Of a DNA stretch of 64,000 nt, positions 52,669-61,550 are shown in pieces. The notes below the pieces were generated by a model that did not search any database, had not been told where the DNA came from, and worked only from the letters and a program-made list of their open reading frames with translations. The stretch is from contig NZ_JAKGTI010000001.1 in NCBI RefSeq assembly GCF_021568695.1, forward strand, positions 496,001 through 560,000. Direction: 5' to 3'. This DNA is from Maritalea mediterranea. Lineage in GTDB: Bacteria > Pseudomonadota > Alphaproteobacteria > Rhizobiales > Devosiaceae. The first letter of the stretch is position 1. Every line of letters begins with the position of its first letter. The translations under genes and the position numbers were made by a program.

Positions 52669-53511
52669 TCAGCCAAAATTGGGGTTGTTCGACACGGCTT
52701 CTGAAATCTGTCGCGCTGTGTGCAACAGCAAATCGCCATAGGTTTTGTCGACCTTGGCCATGGTCCAGTCATTGCCGTAGACACAGATGTTCATGGACGC
52801 GATCACCCGGCCGAACCGATCATATATCGGCGCACCAATGGTGCGTTCGCCCACAATGCATTCCTGGTCTGCGCTGGCAAAGCCGCGTTGGCGCGCCTGT
52901 TCCAGCGAGGCATGAATATCGTCAAGCTCAGTCAGCGTATAAGGCGTGAAGGGTTGCAATGGCGATTCTGCCAAAATGGCATCACACTCTTCCTTCGGCA
53001 AAGCCGACAGATAGGCGCGCCCGCTTGCAGTGCAGAACATGGGGACCCGTCCGCCCACAGGCGGGTTGCCATAAGGGCTGTCCTCATAAGTCTGCCGCAT
53101 CACATAAACCACATCGGTGCCACGTGGCTGCGCCAGATTGACGGCCTTGTTGGACTTTTCCCGCGCCCGCAACAAAAACGGGGCGGCGGCGGAAATAATT
53201 GGCTCGGAAATAGAATAGCTGAAGCCCAGTTCCAAAAGTTTCAGCGCCGGCTTAAGTTGGCGGCTGCGCGGATCACGCTTCAAATAGCCCAACTCCACCA
53301 GCGTGTGGCAGAACCGTTGCGCTGCACTTTTGCCCAAGCCCGTGGTGATGGCCACTTCCGACAGGCTCAGCGAACTATGCCCCCGAAAGGCCTCAAGCAC
53401 CATAAAGGCTTTTTCCACCGATCCCACAAAAAGCGCGTCCCGCGCTTTGCCGGATTGGTTCGGTTGTTGTGATGCTGTAAGCCTGTGAGACAGACCGTCA
53501 GAGTTGGTCAT
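52669..53511 (-). CDS. IclR family transcriptional regulator
   Basis: 280 residues. The HTH is in SVEKAFMVLEAFRGHSSLSLSEVAITTGLGKSAAQRFCHTLVELGYL. The C-terminal effector domain has GGRVPMFCTASGRAYLSALP, GFASADQECIVGERTIGAPIYDRFGRVIASMNI, as in regulators of aromatic and organic-acid catabolism. It lies at the left end of the organohalide locus on the same strand as the FAD oxidoreductase and dehalogenase genes, with 60 bases between. A perfect TATGTG-N7-CACATA dyad precedes its ATG, suggesting autoregulation and perhaps control of the linked genes. Confidence 0.92.
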   Translation of the reverse strand: MTNSDGLSHRLTASQQPNQSGKARDALFVGSVEKAFMVLEAFRGHSSLSLSEVAITTGLGKSAAQRFCHTLVELGYLKRDPRSRQLKPALKLLELGFSYSISEPIISAAAPFLLRAREKSNKAVNLAQPRGTDVVYVMRQTYEDSPYGNPPVGGRVPMFCTASGRAYLSALPKEECDAILAESPLQPFTPYTLTELDDIHASLEQARQRGFASADQECIVGERTIGAPIYDRFGRVIASMNICVYGNDWTMAKVDKTYGDLLLHTARQISEAVSNNPNFG

Positions 53512-54779: not shown

Positions 54780-57700
54780 TTATAGGTCAATTTCCAACAC
54801 GCCATCCGGGTCGGCCGCACGTGATTGGCAAAGGATAATACTGTCCTCCTTTTGTTTTTTCGACAGCACAAAATCCCGATGCTCCACCTCGCCCGAAACA
54901 ATGCCGCATTTGCACACGCCGCAAATCCCGTCCGCACATTTCACATCAATCTGAATGCCATTTTCCTGCAACACATCAGTGGCCGACTTGTCCGCCGGCA
55001 CCTCAAATTCGCGGCCCGACTTGGCCAGTTTCAAGGTGAAGGGATGGTTTTCATAGTCTGGCAGCTCGGGCACATTGAAATATTCAAGATGCCGCTCTTC
55101 CTCTGCAAAACCTTGCCGCTCGGCGGCTTCCATCACCCCAGCCATAAAGCGGTCGGGTCCGCAGCAATAAACATGCTGCCCCGGCTGATAGTTGCGCAAA
55201 ATCGCATCAAGGTCGGCGCGCGCGCCCTCATCACTAAAGTGATAATGCACCCGATCCGCCCATTCAAACTGCGCCAGATCGTCCATAAATCCTGCATTTT
55301 TACGTGACGAGCAGCAATAATGCAGCTCAAAATCAGCGCCGATCGCATGCAGCCGATGGGCCATGGCAATCATCGGCGTCACCCCTATGCCGCCGCCCAT
55401 CAAAAAGCTTTTGCTGGCCCGCTCCTCTAAGGGGAAATGATTGATCGGCTTGGAAATAAAAATCTTCCGCCCTTCTGTGAAAATACGATGCAGCAATTGC
55501 GAGCCACCGCGACCTTCATCTTCGCGCAACACGCCAATTTGATATTTCGAAGTGTCTGCCGGATCACCAGACATGGAATATTGCCGCAAAAATTCCGGCG
55601 CGACCACAATGTCCAGATGCGCGCCCGTAGTCCAGTCGGGCAGGGGGCTGCCATCCAGCGTTTGAAACTCATATTTGGTGACGCTTTCGGTCATGGCTTC
55701 GGCCTTGGTGATCTGCACGCGGATAACAGGCGCGTCGCCCTCAATGCGATATTCGTGCGCCAGCCCTTCCGTCTCGCCCCGCGCCAGCTTTGCCTTATAT
55801 TGCGCTGCCGTGATCATCGCCTGATAGGCCTCAATGCCTTTTTCCCGATCCATGGGAAACGGGAAGGGCCAAGGGTGCGGCGCCAGATTGGCCGGATAGA
55901 CCGCCAAAGTCTGGTCCTCATATTTCAGGTCTAGATCCTTTTGTAGGTCGCGCTCGTTCACCTTGTGCGGCGTCGGGCGATAGCCGCCATCTTCGTGCAG
56001 CTCAAGGTCCCACCACCATTTCTTGATCAAATTGCGTTCGCCATTGCCCAATGCGTCATCCAGTTTGGCCAGGGCCGGTGCGGCCTTAGGGATATTCATT
56101 GCCGCCCAGCGGAACGGCGCTTCGGCAAATATGCCTTCCAAATTCCAGGGGCAGGTTTTCATGCAACGGCCACACATGGCGCCGCCCTCATTGGTGATGC
56201 GATAGGTGGTACATTTCTGGCTATCTGATTTCCAGATCTCATAGCCATTGAACATCAGCTTCGGCCCGGCGGTAATTGCCCCAGAGGGACATTCGCGGGC
56301 GCATTTGTTGCAGCTTTCACAAAATTGCTGCAGCCCAAAGGAGATGGGTTTGTCGTGGGTCATGGGCATGGTGGTGGTTACCACGCCGGATTTGAGCCGT
56401 GGCCCCAAAAACGGGTTGAGGATCACTTCGCCAATGCGGCTCACCTCGCCCAGGCCAGAGAGCAGCAGGAGCGGTGGCTGCAACACTTCGCCATCCATCA
56501 CCGTGTGCGCTTTGGCGCCATAGCCGAGCGACCTTATTTGCTTGGCAACAATGCTGCCCAAGATCGAAAACCGCAAATAAGCCCGCATGGACTGCGACAC
56601 AGCGATCCAATCATCCCCGGATGCGCCTTCCATCGTGTCATAGCCCTGGTCGATCACCATGGAAATGGCCTGATCATGCGGTGGATCAATTGGTTCGCCA
56701 AACGCATCATGCGAATACCAGGTCCAGTCCGGGCAGCGCGATAGGCCCACCGCATCCACGCCCAAAAAATAGGACATGGCTTTGATATTGTCCGCGTTCT
56801 TCTGCGCGTCGAGCGTGCTGGTGCTGGGGGCCGCTGCAGGCTCGCCATCTTGCAACAACACAAAGGCACCCAGCGCACGCCGCTGCGCCATCGAGGGCGC
56901 GGACTTGCGCACATATTTGCCGCCAACAGATGCCTCCTGGTTGCGCTTGCCCATATCGCCAAACAGCGAGCGGGCAAACATATCGGTGCGCTTGGGCACC
57001 CGCGGCACCCGGTCTTCGTCAATAAAAGTGGTCGGCTCATCCACCCGCTTCAGCGTTTCAAACGGATGCGCCCCATCCATAAAGCGACGCTGGGCATAGG
57101 GATCGGCATTTTTGGCGCTTTTGCCGGTGCCATAGCCCAGCTTCCACGCCCAGCCTTTCAATTGCGCCCTTGGCTGTGCAGCAAGCGGCGCCAACGGCTG
57201 ATCATGAGCAAACTCAAAATCGGTCGTCACCGCCGCGATGGAAAAATGCGGCCCCAAAAACGGATTGTGCAAGCAGCCATTTTCAATCGTCGCCAGTCCG
57301 GCGTCCACCGCCAGCCAGTGCAAATCCACATCGCTGGTCGAATGGGAATGGGCGCGGGCATCATGACCCAGCAACCGCATATATTGCGCCAACACCACCG
57401 CCGCCTCATTTGCCCTGAGGGCAGAGCGGTGTGCCTGCGCCCCGTCCAGCCAGTCAGCCCCTGGCTCATCTGCCCAGATTTTACGGGGATGTTCCACAAT
57501 GAACACCAGTGCGTTGGTGTGATGGGTCATCTCCCGCGGTGGCGCATTCATCGCATCGCGCAAATCCGCCATGATCATATCCACGCCCGAGGCCAGCGAT
57601 TTGGTCTGGTCCGTGCGCAGCTTTTGCGCCAGCCGATCAATATCCGGATTGCGGAACGGCGTCTCCAGCATCATTTCCGGCGTGAACGCACAGGTGCCCG

Positions 57701-57995
57701 CCATCGCCACATCACTAAAATAGCCAAACGCCTTCAGATGGTTCTGCCGTTCAACCAGATCGTCAGGCACCTCGGCCTTGGCTTTGTTGACCAACCCGTC
57801 GCGAATGGCATCCAGCATCGCCTGGCCCTCGGCCATGGCATTGATGATATTTTCAGGTACCGCCTCATAGCGGAAACGCATTTGCTCAAACGTTGGCAGG
57901 CACTCAAGATTGGCCGCCTTATCCACGCGTTTCAGCCGCTCCAGCGGAAAAGTGCCCAGGTGAAATGGTCGGTTCTTATTGGAAAAGTACTTCAA
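54780..57995 (-). CDS. rdhA: Self-sufficient reductive dehalogenase: RdhA fused to a flavodoxin-reductase-like and 2Fe-2S module
   Basis: 1071 residues, cytoplasmic (no Tat signal), resembling the NAD(P)H-dependent B12 dehalogenases BhbA and NpRdhA. Residues 80-280 form a degenerate RdhA-like half. Residues 400-630 form the active RdhA half, with two 4Fe-4S motifs (C559, C562, C565, C569 and C608, C611, C615). Residues 755-960 form the flavin/NAD module (RQYSMSG 804-810, GGGIGVTPM 867-875). Residues 985-1071 form a plant-type 2Fe-2S domain (C1020, C1025, C1028, C1056). Y473, K535 and R599 have exactly the 62 and 64 residue spacing that I recall for NpRdhA Y426, K488 and R552. The start is TTG with AAAGGA 8 bases upstream. 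It should remove halogen from a haloaromatic acid or phenol. Confidence 0.93.
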   Translation of the reverse strand: MKYFSNKNRPFHLGTFPLERLKRVDKAANLECLPTFEQMRFRYEAVPENIINAMAEGQAMLDAIRDGLVNKAKAEVPDDLVERQNHLKAFGYFSDVAMAGTCAFTPEMMLETPFRNPDIDRLAQKLRTDQTKSLASGVDMIMADLRDAMNAPPREMTHHTNALVFIVEHPRKIWADEPGADWLDGAQAHRSALRANEAAVVLAQYMRLLGHDARAHSHSTSDVDLHWLAVDAGLATIENGCLHNPFLGPHFSIAAVTTDFEFAHDQPLAPLAAQPRAQLKGWAWKLGYGTGKSAKNADPYAQRRFMDGAHPFETLKRVDEPTTFIDEDRVPRVPKRTDMFARSLFGDMGKRNQEASVGGKYVRKSAPSMAQRRALGAFVLLQDGEPAAAPSTSTLDAQKNADNIKAMSYFLGVDAVGLSRCPDWTWYSHDAFGEPIDPPHDQAISMVIDQGYDTMEGASGDDWIAVSQSMRAYLRFSILGSIVAKQIRSLGYGAKAHTVMDGEVLQPPLLLLSGLGEVSRIGEVILNPFLGPRLKSGVVTTTMPMTHDKPISFGLQQFCESCNKCARECPSGAITAGPKLMFNGYEIWKSDSQKCTTYRITNEGGAMCGRCMKTCPWNLEGIFAEAPFRWAAMNIPKAAPALAKLDDALGNGERNLIKKWWWDLELHEDGGYRPTPHKVNERDLQKDLDLKYEDQTLAVYPANLAPHPWPFPFPMDREKGIEAYQAMITAAQYKAKLARGETEGLAHEYRIEGDAPVIRVQITKAEAMTESVTKYEFQTLDGSPLPDWTTGAHLDIVVAPEFLRQYSMSGDPADTSKYQIGVLREDEGRGGSQLLHRIFTEGRKIFISKPINHFPLEERASKSFLMGGGIGVTPMIAMAHRLHAIGADFELHYCCSSRKNAGFMDDLAQFEWADRVHYHFSDEGARADLDAILRNYQPGQHVYCCGPDRFMAGVMEAAERQGFAEEERHLEYFNVPELPDYENHPFTLKLAKSGREFEVPADKSATDVLQENGIQIDVKCADGICGVCKCGIVSGEVEHRDFVLSKKQKEDSIILCQSRAADPDGVLEIDL

Positions 57996-58157: not shown

Positions 58158-58607
58158 TTAAAGTCGCATCAATTTCACATCTTCACCTTCGGTCATCTGG
58201 TCGACCGCCTTCATCACAATGGCATAGGTCTCATCATCCAACTTGCTGGCGAAATGCTCGTTCAACTCGCGCACCAAAACATGGCACGCTTTCATCTTCT
58301 CTTCCCCGAGCGGGGTCAGCACCACATCGCGATAGCGCTTGTCGTCGTCAATGCCATTGCGTTCGATCAGCCCGCGCTTTTCCATGTCGCGCAGCAACCG
58401 CGAAACCGCGGGGCGGGCAATGCAGATATAGTCCGCCAGGCCCGAGGGCGAGTTCACATCTTCCATGCCCACACCCCGCAACACACACCACATCAGGCGA
58501 GTCACACCATGCTCGGAAAGCTGCTTTTCCAGCCTTGCCTCCATAATCCGCGCCAACCGGGTCACCTTGAACCCGATGCGGTTATGCAATGTAAATTCTT
58601 CAGCCAA
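58158..58607 (-). CDS. MarR family transcriptional regulator
   Basis: 149 residues from TTG 58605-58607, chosen because GGAGGG lies 7 bases upstream; a GTG at 58640 gives a longer frame but places the GGAGGG inside the gene. The winged HTH is in SGLADYICIARPAVSRLLRDMEKRGLIERNGIDDDKRYRDVVLTPLGEEK. It sits between rdhA and the divergent TRAP genes, with a large imperfect dyad in the intergenic region. It is therefore the likely local switch responding to the halogenated substrate or its product. Confidence 0.93.
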   Translation of the reverse strand: MAEEFTLHNRIGFKVTRLARIMEARLEKQLSEHGVTRLMWCVLRGVGMEDVNSPSGLADYICIARPAVSRLLRDMEKRGLIERNGIDDDKRYRDVVLTPLGEEKMKACHVLVRELNEHFASKLDDETYAIVMKAVDQMTEGEDVKLMRL

Positions 58608-58664
58608 TGATTGCCCTCCAAAACAAACCAGTTGACTCACCTTATATCATATTCTTTTATTTAG

Positions 58665-58690
58665 TTAACATGGATAACTATCTATGTTAA
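58665..58690. promoter_or_regulatory. Imperfect 26-base dyad, probable MarR operator
   Basis: TTAACAT (58665-58671) and ATGTTAA (58684-58690) flank an inner GATA/TATC pair. The dyad lies midway between the divergent MarR and TRAP genes, in AT-rich sequence suited to both promoters. Confidence 0.65.
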
Positions 58691-58734
58691 GTACTAAAGC
58701 GGAGACAATCAAAATTCAATTGAGGGGGAGAAAA

Positions 58735-59751
58735 ATGAGAGTTGAGTTTGAACGTTTTAAAGGCCTTGTGGCCGGGGGGATTGCGGCGGCTGGCCTGATA
58801 TTTGGCGCCGCCGTAGCACAAGCCGAAGAATTGAAGATGGCGCATTTTATGCCGTCGATGCACCCGATGGATCAAGGCGTGATGACACCATTGGCCAAAC
58901 AGGTTGAAGCCGCCACGAATGGCGCGCTGACGATTCGCATTTATCCATCAGGCGAACTGGGCAAGGGGCCGGTGCAACAATATAAGCGCGTGGTCACTGG
59001 TGTGGCCGATATTGTGTTTGGCATTCCTGAATATACGCCGAAGCGTTTCAGCAAAACCGCCATGGTGCATATGCCGGGCCTGTTCCCGGATGGCACCGCC
59101 GCCACCCATGCGCTTTGGGACAATATGGATCTCGTTGAGGATGAATATAGCGAGGTCAAACTGCTCGGCCTTTGGGCCAACAACCCATCGGTGCTCGTGA
59201 CGCGGGATAAGGCCGTACGTACCGTTGCTGACATGAAAGGCATGAAAATTCGCACCCCTAACCCGGTGATGACCGAATTGGTGAAAGCCTGGGGCGGCAT
59301 TCCGGTCTCCATGCCCACAACCGACACTTATAACGCCATGAACACCGGCGTAATTGATGCGGTGATGATTGGGCCATCTGGCATCCGGTCCTATAAGCTC
59401 AATGAAACCGCCAAATATGTCACCACCAATATCCCGTCTGCGCTCGACAGCTTCTACCTCTTGATGAACAAATCGAGCTACGACAATCTGAGTGCGGAGC
59501 ATCAGAAAGTGATTGACGAGGCCACAGGCCGCTATCTCAGCCTGCGTGGTGCAAAGGCCTTCTATGATGCCGGGCAAACTGGCCTTGAACTGGCGCGCGA
59601 AAGTGGCGTCGAATTGATCCAGATCGATGCGGATGCCGATGCAGAGTTCCGTGCAACAATGAAGGAGACGCTGGATCAGTTCATCGATAAGGTTGGTGAA
59701 GAAAAGGGTGTCGACGCGCATGCGATCGTTGACGCATTGGCTAGCAACTAA
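58735..59751 (+). CDS. dctP: TRAP transporter substrate-binding protein (DctP)
   Basis: 338 residues. ATG 58735 follows GAGGGGGAG, and the signal peptide ends at about residue 30 (VAQAEEL). Landmarks are LKMAHFMPSMHPMDQGVMTPLAKQVEAATNGALTIRIYPSGELG and MKGMKIRTPNPVMTELVKAWGGIPVSMPTTDTYNAMNTGVIDAVM, with the conserved Arg (KIRTP) that usually binds a carboxylate. From its place beside the dehalogenase the ligand may be a halogenated aromatic acid. It is the first gene of a tight TRAP operon. Confidence 0.95.
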   Translation: MRVEFERFKGLVAGGIAAAGLIFGAAVAQAEELKMAHFMPSMHPMDQGVMTPLAKQVEAATNGALTIRIYPSGELGKGPVQQYKRVVTGVADIVFGIPEYTPKRFSKTAMVHMPGLFPDGTAATHALWDNMDLVEDEYSEVKLLGLWANNPSVLVTRDKAVRTVADMKGMKIRTPNPVMTELVKAWGGIPVSMPTTDTYNAMNTGVIDAVMIGPSGIRSYKLNETAKYVTTNIPSALDSFYLLMNKSSYDNLSAEHQKVIDEATGRYLSLRGAKAFYDAGQTGLELARESGVELIQIDADADAEFRATMKETLDQFIDKVGEEKGVDAHAIVDALASN

Positions 59752-59754
59752 GCT

Positions 59755-60249
59755 ATGAAAGAGCCAAAGATGGAGGCGCCAGCGCGGCAAGATGCTGCCT
59801 GGCGCCGCTGGGTTGAGCGGCCATTGGTAATCTGTGGCGCGGCCCTGGTATTCGTGCTGATGGGGCTTTCTTTCTCAGATGCCCTGTTGCGGTCCCTGTT
59901 CAATATGCCCATTTTCGGCGCCAATGATTATGCGCAAATTCTTCTTTCTTTTGCCGTTGCGATCAGCATGCCGCTTTGTGTCATTTCCGGTCGCTTGATC
60001 GCCATTGATACCATCACGGATATGTTGCCCGAACGGGCGCAAATCTTCCTCGATTGGCTGACCACTTTGATGGGAGTCGTGATTTTGGCTTATCTCGCCT
60101 GGCGGGCTTATTCCAATGCGCTGGAGGCGGCGAGTTTTGGCGAAAGCACTTTGCTGCTGCAATTGCCCTTTGGGCCCTCATATTATGCGGTGGCGGCGGG
60201 TAGCGCTTTGAGTGCGATTTTGCTGCTGGTGGAAAGGCTGGTGCGATGA
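59755..60249 (+). CDS. dctQ: TRAP transporter small permease (DctQ)
   Basis: 164 residues with four membrane spans (first at about 25-43; then GANDYAQILLSFAVAISMPLCVISGRLIAID, the DctQ signature). It starts 3 bases after the dctP stop and overlaps dctM by four bases (ATGA). The product links the receptor to the large subunit. Confidence 0.92.
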   Translation: MKEPKMEAPARQDAAWRRWVERPLVICGAALVFVLMGLSFSDALLRSLFNMPIFGANDYAQILLSFAVAISMPLCVISGRLIAIDTITDMLPERAQIFLDWLTTLMGVVILAYLAWRAYSNALEAASFGESTLLLQLPFGPSYYAVAAGSALSAILLLVERLVR

Positions 60250-61550
60250 GCCCTGAGATTTTTGGACTGCTGGGCTTTGTTGCCCTATTTGCGTTTCTGG
60301 CCATGGGCACACCGGTGGCGATCGCCTTGCTGGTGGTTGGCTTTGTCGGTACGACTCTTTTGTCCGGCTTTCAGGCCGCCGCCTTCACCTTGAGTGGGCA
60401 GGTATTTGCAACGGTCACCGTCTATGAACTCACCATCATTCCGCTTTTTATCCTGATGGGTAATCTGGCCTCAGCCGCCGGATTAAGCCGGGATTTGTTT
60501 GAAGCGGCCCATAAAATGATTGGCCGGTTCAAAGGCGGCTGGGCGGGTGCCACCATTGTCGGCTGCGCCGGTTTTGCAGCGCTCTCGGGGTCGTCCATCG
60601 CCTCGGCGATCACCATGGGCAAAGTCGCCTACCCCGAAATGCGGCGTTATGATTATGGCGCCAAATTGGCCACCGGCTCCATTGCGGCGGGCGGTACTTT
60701 GGGCATATTGATTCCGCCCTCTACCGGCTTTGTGATCTATGCGGTGCTGACCGAAGAATCCATAGGCCGTCTGTTTATGGCGGGCGTCCTGCCGGGCATT
60801 TTGCTCACCACCATGTTTTTGGTGGCCATTGCAGTTGTCACCTTTTTCTGGCCAGAGGAGGGGCCGCGTGGGCCTAAATTCACAGCAAAGGAAAAACTCT
60901 CCAGCCTGATGCGAGCTACCGGCATCGCTGGCATTGTGCTCATCACCATTGGCGGCATTTACACCGGCCTGTTCACCCCGGTGGAGGCTGCGGGCGTGGG
61001 CGCATTTTTCGCCCTGTTTATGCTGATCATTCGCCGCAAATGTACGGTGGCAACCCTTTATGATGTCAGCGCCGAAACCTTGAAAACCACCGGCATGGCC
61101 TTTTTCATCTTGATCGGCGCCAATGTCTTTGCCCCGTTCGTGGCCCTGTCGCATTTGCCCGCTACCATTGCCGAAGGCATGGGGGCACTGGCGCTGGGCA
61201 CCTATGGCACCCTGGCCCTGATCCTTTTGGGTTATGTGATTCTGGGCATGTTCATCGAAGGGCTTTCCCTGCTGGTGATCACCTTGCCCATTGTGTTTCC
61301 ACTTGTCGTCGGCTTGGGCTTCGATCCGATCTGGCTTGGGGTCGTAATGGTGATTGTTCTGGAAATGGGCCTGATTTCGCCACCTGTGGGGGTGAACGTG
61401 TTCATTGTGAAAAGCGTGGTGCATGATGTGAAAATCGAAACCATCTTTGCGGGCATTATGCCCTTCTGGCTCGCCATGATCGCCACTTTGGCACTGATCG
61501 TGATCTTCCCGGAAATCGCGCTTCTCCTGCCCAACGCCATGTTCAACTAA
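60246..61550 (+). CDS. dctM: TRAP transporter large permease (DctM)
   Basis: 434 residues with about 12 spans. It has DctM landmarks ELTIIPLFILMGNLASAAGLSRDLFEAAHKMIGRFKGG, GCAGFAALSGSSIASAITMG, GGTLGILIPPSTGFVIYAVLTEESIGRLFMAG and EMGLISPPVGVNVFIVK. It is the sodium-coupled transport subunit. The start overlaps dctQ. A GC-rich hairpin without a T-run follows the stop codon. Confidence 0.95.
   Translation: MSPEIFGLLGFVALFAFLAMGTPVAIALLVVGFVGTTLLSGFQAAAFTLSGQVFATVTVYELTIIPLFILMGNLASAAGLSRDLFEAAHKMIGRFKGGWAGATIVGCAGFAALSGSSIASAITMGKVAYPEMRRYDYGAKLATGSIAAGGTLGILIPPSTGFVIYAVLTEESIGRLFMAGVLPGILLTTMFLVAIAVVTFFWPEEGPRGPKFTAKEKLSSLMRATGIAGIVLITIGGIYTGLFTPVEAAGVGAFFALFMLIIRRKCTVATLYDVSAETLKTTGMAFFILIGANVFAPFVALSHLPATIAEGMGALALGTYGTLALILLGYVILGMFIEGLSLLVITLPIVFPLVVGLGFDPIWLGVVMVIVLEMGLISPPVGVNVFIVKSVVHDVKIETIFAGIMPFWLAMIATLALIVIFPEIALLLPNAMFN

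Follow-up and report, generated by a model that had tools for sequence, protein, structure and literature searches.

Introduction

Self-sufficient catabolic reductive dehalogenases, in which a cobalamin-dependent RdhA core and a phthalate dioxygenase reductase (PDOR) are joined in one chain, are represented among the described enzymes by BhbA of Comamonas sp. 7D-2 (plasmid pBHB) and JtRdhA of Jhaorihella thermophila. According to its description (PMC10463259), JtRdhA has no twin-arginine translocation (Tat) signal, possesses the equivalents of Y426, K488 and R552 of NpRdhA from Nitratireductor pacificus, carries an insert relative to NpRdhA and is about 39% identical to it. The same paper also reports that JtRdhA catalyzes the NADPH-dependent debromination and deiodination of ortho-halophenolics with tight coupling and is active in air; the unfused enzyme Ros_A3X954 loses its activity upon oxygen exposure (PMC13101508). 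This report deals with a fusion gene, rdhA, on the minus strand (54780..57995) of a 64,000-nucleotide stretch of Maritalea mediterranea DNA (NZ_JAKGTI010000001.1, positions 496,001 to 560,000, hereafter the window).

The Maritalea protein belongs to this described RdhA-PDOR kind. Judged from its sequence, a predicted structure and the analogy with characterised enzymes, it is very probably a cytoplasmic reductive dehalogenase that draws on NAD(P)H and acts on ortho-brominated (and iodinated) phenolics. The enzyme type has already been described, while the use which Maritalea makes of the product has not, and what is new here is a conserved marR-palindrome-TRAP (tripartite ATP-independent periplasmic transporter) cassette together with the missing 4-hydroxybenzoate route. 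A literature search gave nothing joining Maritalea with a dehalogenase, and the protein is a well-supported addition to a group of enzymes that is widespread although few of its members have been tested.

Gene and Domain Architecture

The rdhA gene is a single open reading frame (ORF) of 1071 amino acids with a TTG start, as the original prediction, made from the sequence alone, had placed it, and an AAGGA-like site lies 5' of the start codon. A scan with NCBIfam profiles put the protein over the curated cut-off of TIGR02486 (reductive dehalogenase; 186.6 vs 160.35 bits), and Pfam detected Fer4-type and Fer2 (PF00111) domains. Among solved structures, the best match by phmmer was NpRdhA (4RAS and 6ZXU), which covers residues 1-107 and 158-739 with E values of about 1e-162 to 1e-161, and residues 757-1068 matched the phthalate dioxygenase reductase 2PIA (E 2e-61). 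The reductive dehalogenase part comprises residues 1-740 (55776..57995), with cobalamin and two [4Fe-4S] clusters by homology; the cluster motifs are CxxCxxCxxxC at C559-C569 (56289..56321) and CxxCxxxC at C608-C615 (56151..56174). The PDOR part (residues 754-1071, 54780..55736) should by homology bind flavin mononucleotide (FMN), NAD(P)H and a [2Fe-2S] cluster; it contains RxYS at 804-807, GGxGxTP at 868-874 and, as [2Fe-2S] ligands by motif and the Fer2 match, C1020, C1025, C1028 and C1056 (54828..54938). Residues 107-158 (57522..57677), the gap between the two phmmer segments, do not align to NpRdhA by sequence, but a stretch of similar length is present in BhbA and the other three fusions in an alignment of five. 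A fusion-specific insert is also reported for JtRdhA (PMC10463259), and the two are presumably the same.

No RR pair occurs within residues 1-40, so that the Tat signal of a respiratory enzyme is not seen. As in the self-sufficient catabolic type, an FMN/NAD(P)H/[2Fe-2S] reductase stands at the C-terminus of the same chain; the two [4Fe-4S] motifs and conserved Y, K and R site are those of a reductive dehalogenase. The original prediction of a cobalamin and [4Fe-4S] RdhA core joined to a flavin/NAD(P)H and [2Fe-2S] reductase without a Tat signal agrees with these matches and motifs. Because PF13486 matched nothing in the genome and none of 14 controls either, the genome-wide search for reductive dehalogenases was run with TIGR02486 in its place; elsewhere in the genome it gave a protein with a weak match (28.7 bits, in a 395-amino-acid frame).

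BhbA, the closest characterised enzyme compared by sequence, matches over its full length with 50% identity and the same domain order. NpRdhA has no reductase domain, unlike the window fusion; over residues 1-740 the identity is 39%, similar to the published value for JtRdhA, the catalytic residues are equal and the fold is alike by model.

Active Site and Predicted Structure

One scan of genome contigs gave at least 577 stretches encoding some relative at E<=1e-3, of which the best 80 were retained as loci (denoted L). In 78 of them the match begins at residue 1 or 2 and runs to 1071, while L063 matches 53-1071 and L064 matches 1-1065. An 80-row alignment was made from the window protein and 79 of the 80 loci, the shortened L063 being excluded; the rows are 66-92% identical to the window protein.

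The alignment with NpRdhA is ungapped over about residues 432-667 with a constant offset of 47, so that Y473 (56577..56579), K535 (56391..56393) and R599 (56199..56201) correspond to Y426, K488 and R552, Y473 being the proton donor by homology. The spacing noticed in the original prediction is therefore exact, and it rests on this sequence alignment and not on side-chain superposition. These three residues are invariant in all 80 rows, as are the eight cysteines at 559-615 (including C595), the four [2Fe-2S] cysteines and R804, Y806 and S807. The active-site residues of NpRdhA include F290, F291, F310, P311, A419, S422, M423, Y426, N452, K488 and R552 according to two reports (PMC7565698, PMC10463259). 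Six of these 11 are retained: F340, S469, M470, Y473, K535 and R599 (NpRdhA F291, S422, M423, Y426, K488 and R552) are present in 80 of 80 rows and in BhbA.

The original prediction had proposed superposing a predicted structure on NpRdhA, and by model the fold is the same. An AlphaFold2 model built from the 80-row alignment had a mean predicted local distance difference test score (pLDDT) of 77.8 and a predicted template modelling score of 0.79, and Foldseek ranked NpRdhA chains at the top (38-39% identity). With VIA-align, residues 1-740 superposed on 4ras_C with Z 35.6 and a root-mean-square deviation (rmsd) of 2.8 A over 667 residues; residues 754-1071 gave Z 29.5 and rmsd 7.5 to 2pia, so the mutual placement of the domains is unsure.

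Several points speak against the proposed reading as a reductive dehalogenase of ortho-brominated phenolics. Five pocket residues differ from NpRdhA (F290M, F310Y, P311V, A419V and N452V, that is, M339, Y361, V362, V466 and V499), so the substrate may differ; the equivalents of NpRdhA 290, 310 and 311 are less certain, since the alignment has a gap close by. pLDDT is below 50 at 333-348, 577-592, 695-721 and in parts of the [2Fe-2S] domain. Moreover, the likeness to JtRdhA is drawn from its published description, and JtRdhA showed no turnover of those chlorinated compounds on which it was assayed (PMC10463259).

The changed residues are themselves conserved: M339 is found in 80 of 80 rows, Y361 in 78, V466 in 79 and V499 in 78, and position 362 is split evenly between V and A (40 rows each). 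BhbA has F, S, S, A and F at 339, 361, 466, 499 and 806, where the window protein has M, Y, V, V and Y; at 362 it has V as in the window. By these aligned letters the 80 rows share a putative pocket distinct from those of NpRdhA and BhbA, whose substrate preference should not be carried over. The fusion of Roseobacter sp. MED193 (L025), 71% identical to the window protein, has equal letters at all 18 positions compared, and to our knowledge it has not been characterised. Roseobacter sp. MED193 has two reductive dehalogenases over the cut-off. Identification of L025 with the characterised Ros_A3X954 was dropped, the motifs printed for the latter (PMC13101508) being found in the second, unfused enzyme (L097 649-2202), which is easily mistaken for the fusion.

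Proposed Mechanism

The JtRdhA mechanism is carried over to the window fusion by homology. An anionic halophenolic would be imported by the TRAP transporter, and the ligand would free the MarR regulator from its palindrome, opening marR-rdhA and dctPQM. A hydride from NAD(P)H would pass to FMN, and single electrons would then travel via the [2Fe-2S] cluster and both [4Fe-4S] clusters until they reach base-off cobalamin. The cobalt would meet the halogen ortho to the phenol hydroxyl, the phenolate being held by K535, R599 and S469 and the proton coming from Y473, and halide and dehalogenated phenol would be released. The chemistry of this scheme is taken from the JtRdhA and NpRdhA literature, and its transport, regulation and substrate are proposals; what was observed is the gene with its order of domains and its motifs, the fold of the model and the conserved surroundings. 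As to the cofactor, the genome has a gene for CobS (cobalamin synthase), one gene of the B12 pathway only.

Substrate and Fate of the Product

The original prediction suggested marine bromophenols or bromobenzoates as substrates, from which halogen would be removed aerobically. Aerobic function has a parallel in JtRdhA but not in Ros_A3X954, and for the window protein it is a tentative proposal. Bromophenolics are favoured by analogy with JtRdhA and BhbA, but catabolic use of bromobenzoates is weakened for this organism, since the window genome has no PobA over the cut-off (best 55.4 vs 538.7 bits), intradiol dioxygenase (PF00775) and HpaB were not found in it, and its sole LigB-family protein is over the 4,5-DOPA-dioxygenase cut-off. 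The absence of PobA and protocatechuate ring cleavage concerns the 4-hydroxybenzoate/protocatechuate route only. At E<=1e-100 PobA is found in none of six Maritalea genomes (one of them without rdhA, one 83% complete), while it is over the cut-off in 63 of 121 genomes of the family. It is therefore quite improbable that bromo-4-hydroxybenzoates are debrominated here and the product eaten via protocatechuate, although this route suits other carriers. In five of the 80 loci (L034, L036, L042, L048 and L063) pobA stands directly behind rdhA, and the two of these pobA genes that were scanned are both over the TIGR02360 cut-off. BhbA lies among ligAB, one gene away, and a tripartite tricarboxylate binding protein gene, and the fusion of Nitratireductor OM-1 has pobA about 3.4 kb away. 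When the genomes that hold the first 40 of the 80 loci are considered, 29 have PobA over the cut-off; the four Maritalea in this set gave nothing at 1e-100 and probably overlap with the six genus members above. The 4-hydroxybenzoate route thus fits other carriers but not clearly the window genome. Some carriers seem to be without the pathway usually assumed for the product, so that the native substrate is a testable question.

That PobA over the cut-off, PF00775 and HpaB were not found in the window genome is consistent with detoxification, in which bromophenols would be debrominated and the phenol excreted or left to others. The MarR regulator upstream of rdhA points in the same direction, as this class often senses phenolics. 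However, the adjoining TRAP uptake system argues for import, and of the ring routes, the gentisate, catechol 2,3-, phenol-hydroxylase, Paa and Box routes were not searched, the first three being a gap that tells against this explanation; it is a possible but tentative one. Alternatively, a halogenated tyrosine or 4-hydroxyphenyl acid could be debrominated and its product passed to the homogentisate pathway, for which HmgA, MaiA and HPPD are over the cut-off in one stretch of the genome (L095 9122-14472; G000:C12). An ORF between these genes is, from its position, a probable fumarylacetoacetase, though it matched no NCBIfam model at 1e-30. This pathway is common and serves ordinary tyrosine, and there is no sequence link between it and rdhA. 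A gene for a FAD-dependent amino-acid-oxidase-like protein (PF01266; 53572..54699, minus strand) follows rdhA by 80 bp in the window and is also found after rdhA in L001 (about 1.1 kb off, with an opposed ORF between) and L002, but in tblastn at 1e-5 the other 78 of the 80 loci have no match. According to its report, JtRdhA acts on 3-bromo-4-hydroxyphenylacetate at 99% of its best rate, but bromotyrosine is absent from Table 1 and the word tyrosine from the main text there (PMC10463259). Entry into homogentisate is accordingly unlikely. Less likely still is a ligand-controlled module in Maritalea, centred on the fusion and made up of MarR, the 26-bp operator, TRAP and RdhA, which would take up and debrominate natural marine halogenated tyrosines or 4-hydroxyphenyl acids and feed homogentisate and not protocatechuate. 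If true, it would mean reductive, B12-dependent use of halotyrosines in bacteria living with air; among the papers listed on bromotyrosine and reductive dehalogenase or debromination, as far as titles and the beginnings of abstracts tell, no bacterial RdhA route was recognised. Finally, it is hardly credible that the fusion is a class III B12 enzyme of another function than dehalogenation, for instance an epoxyqueuosine reductase: the match to TIGR00276 (QueG) is weak (21.8 bits against a cut-off of 200), TIGR02486 is over its cut-off, the halophenol-binding residues are kept, and the weakly matching 395-amino-acid frame is present elsewhere in the genome.

Gene Neighbourhood

A MarR-family regulator gene (58158..58640, minus strand; over the PF01047 cut-off, below that of TIGR02337) lies 5' of rdhA on its strand, and dctPQM diverge from it: DctP, the TRAP substrate-binding protein (58684..59751, plus strand; PF03480; start uncertain), and two conserved ORFs on the same strand which by position we take to be DctQ, the small subunit (59755..60249), and DctM, the large subunit (60246..61550). 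By tblastn, which covered all 80 loci, marR and dctPQM accompany rdhA in ten (L001-L003 and L005-L011); L010 ends within DctM, and in L001 about 1.1 kb and another ORF separate marR and rdhA. Since some loci end early, such neighbour counts are lower bounds. The gene-order rows omit L017, L059, L073 and L074, where the RdhA ORF escaped detection. Of the ten cassette relatives, L010 has ATG as the aligned rdhA start codon, and the other nine have either TTG or GTG. Furthermore, marR stands in L033 without TRAP genes next to it, and the match to MarR in L067 is weaker (48%). A more distant DctM (52-54%) is encoded immediately before rdhA, and on its strand, in L012, L030 and L067.

Between marR and dctP, overlapping the listed dctP start, is a 26-bp near-palindrome (58665..58690), a candidate MarR operator to which the regulator may bind. 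If dctP began instead at the ATG of codon 18, which is preceded by a GGGGGAG site, it would no longer overlap the palindrome; DctP relatives align from residue 9-15 in six of the ten loci, from 1 in two and from 28 and 43 in the others. The pattern was derived from the window and the ten cassette loci and matches there by construction; its sole independent match is in L033, before marR, with none in the other 69 of the 80 loci, and none of 100 shuffles of the window matched at <=3 mismatches. In promoter and terminator scans the numbers of matches did not clearly exceed those in shuffled sequence (3 vs 5.1 and 13 vs 10.6, respectively). MarR control of rdh genes is known in Dehalococcoides (PMC6299228), so a MarR gene next to rdhA is not new in itself; among the papers listed by a literature search, none dealt with such a marR-rdhA/TRAP cassette. 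The marR-palindrome-TRAP neighbourhood offers a ready inducer assay for the native-substrate question.

Relatives and Other Observations

The best 80 loci are mostly of Alphaproteobacteria, many of them of marine genera, with L014 and L043 labelled Granulosicoccaceae. The nearest relatives among them are those of Maritalea myrionectae and M. mobilis (92% identical), in agreement with the assignment of the window to Maritalea. At E<=1e-200 the gene occurs in five of 121 family genomes, all of them Maritalea (five of the six of the genus). In a quick IQ-TREE run with 83 proteins, a branch of 12 rows unites the window protein with those of Maritalea, Roseibium (Stappiaceae) and L004, at a Shimodaira-Hasegawa-like approximate likelihood ratio support of 100. 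This branch contains ten of the 11 cassette rows, L011 standing outside on an unresolved fork, and support for the cassette rows as one side of a branch was only 42. A horizontal gain of rdhA by Maritalea is plausible.

At 52669-53511 the window encodes an IclR-type regulator of the PcaR/PcaU/PobR group; its score is below the cut-off (184.5 vs 284.75 bits), and PobA over the cut-off is missing from this genome. On a Jannaschia plasmid (L092 2086-9201), a 68% identical fusion is accompanied by a divergent MarR gene and then a betaine-type ABC transporter, so there MarR is kept while the kind of transporter changes. Moreover, L016, L018, L019, L025, L026, L029, L031, L041, L047, L051 and L064 share a recurrent gene set that precedes rdhA on its strand at a distance of about 2-5 kb; judged from its sequences, it may encode LamB/YcsF and 5-oxoprolinase subunits.

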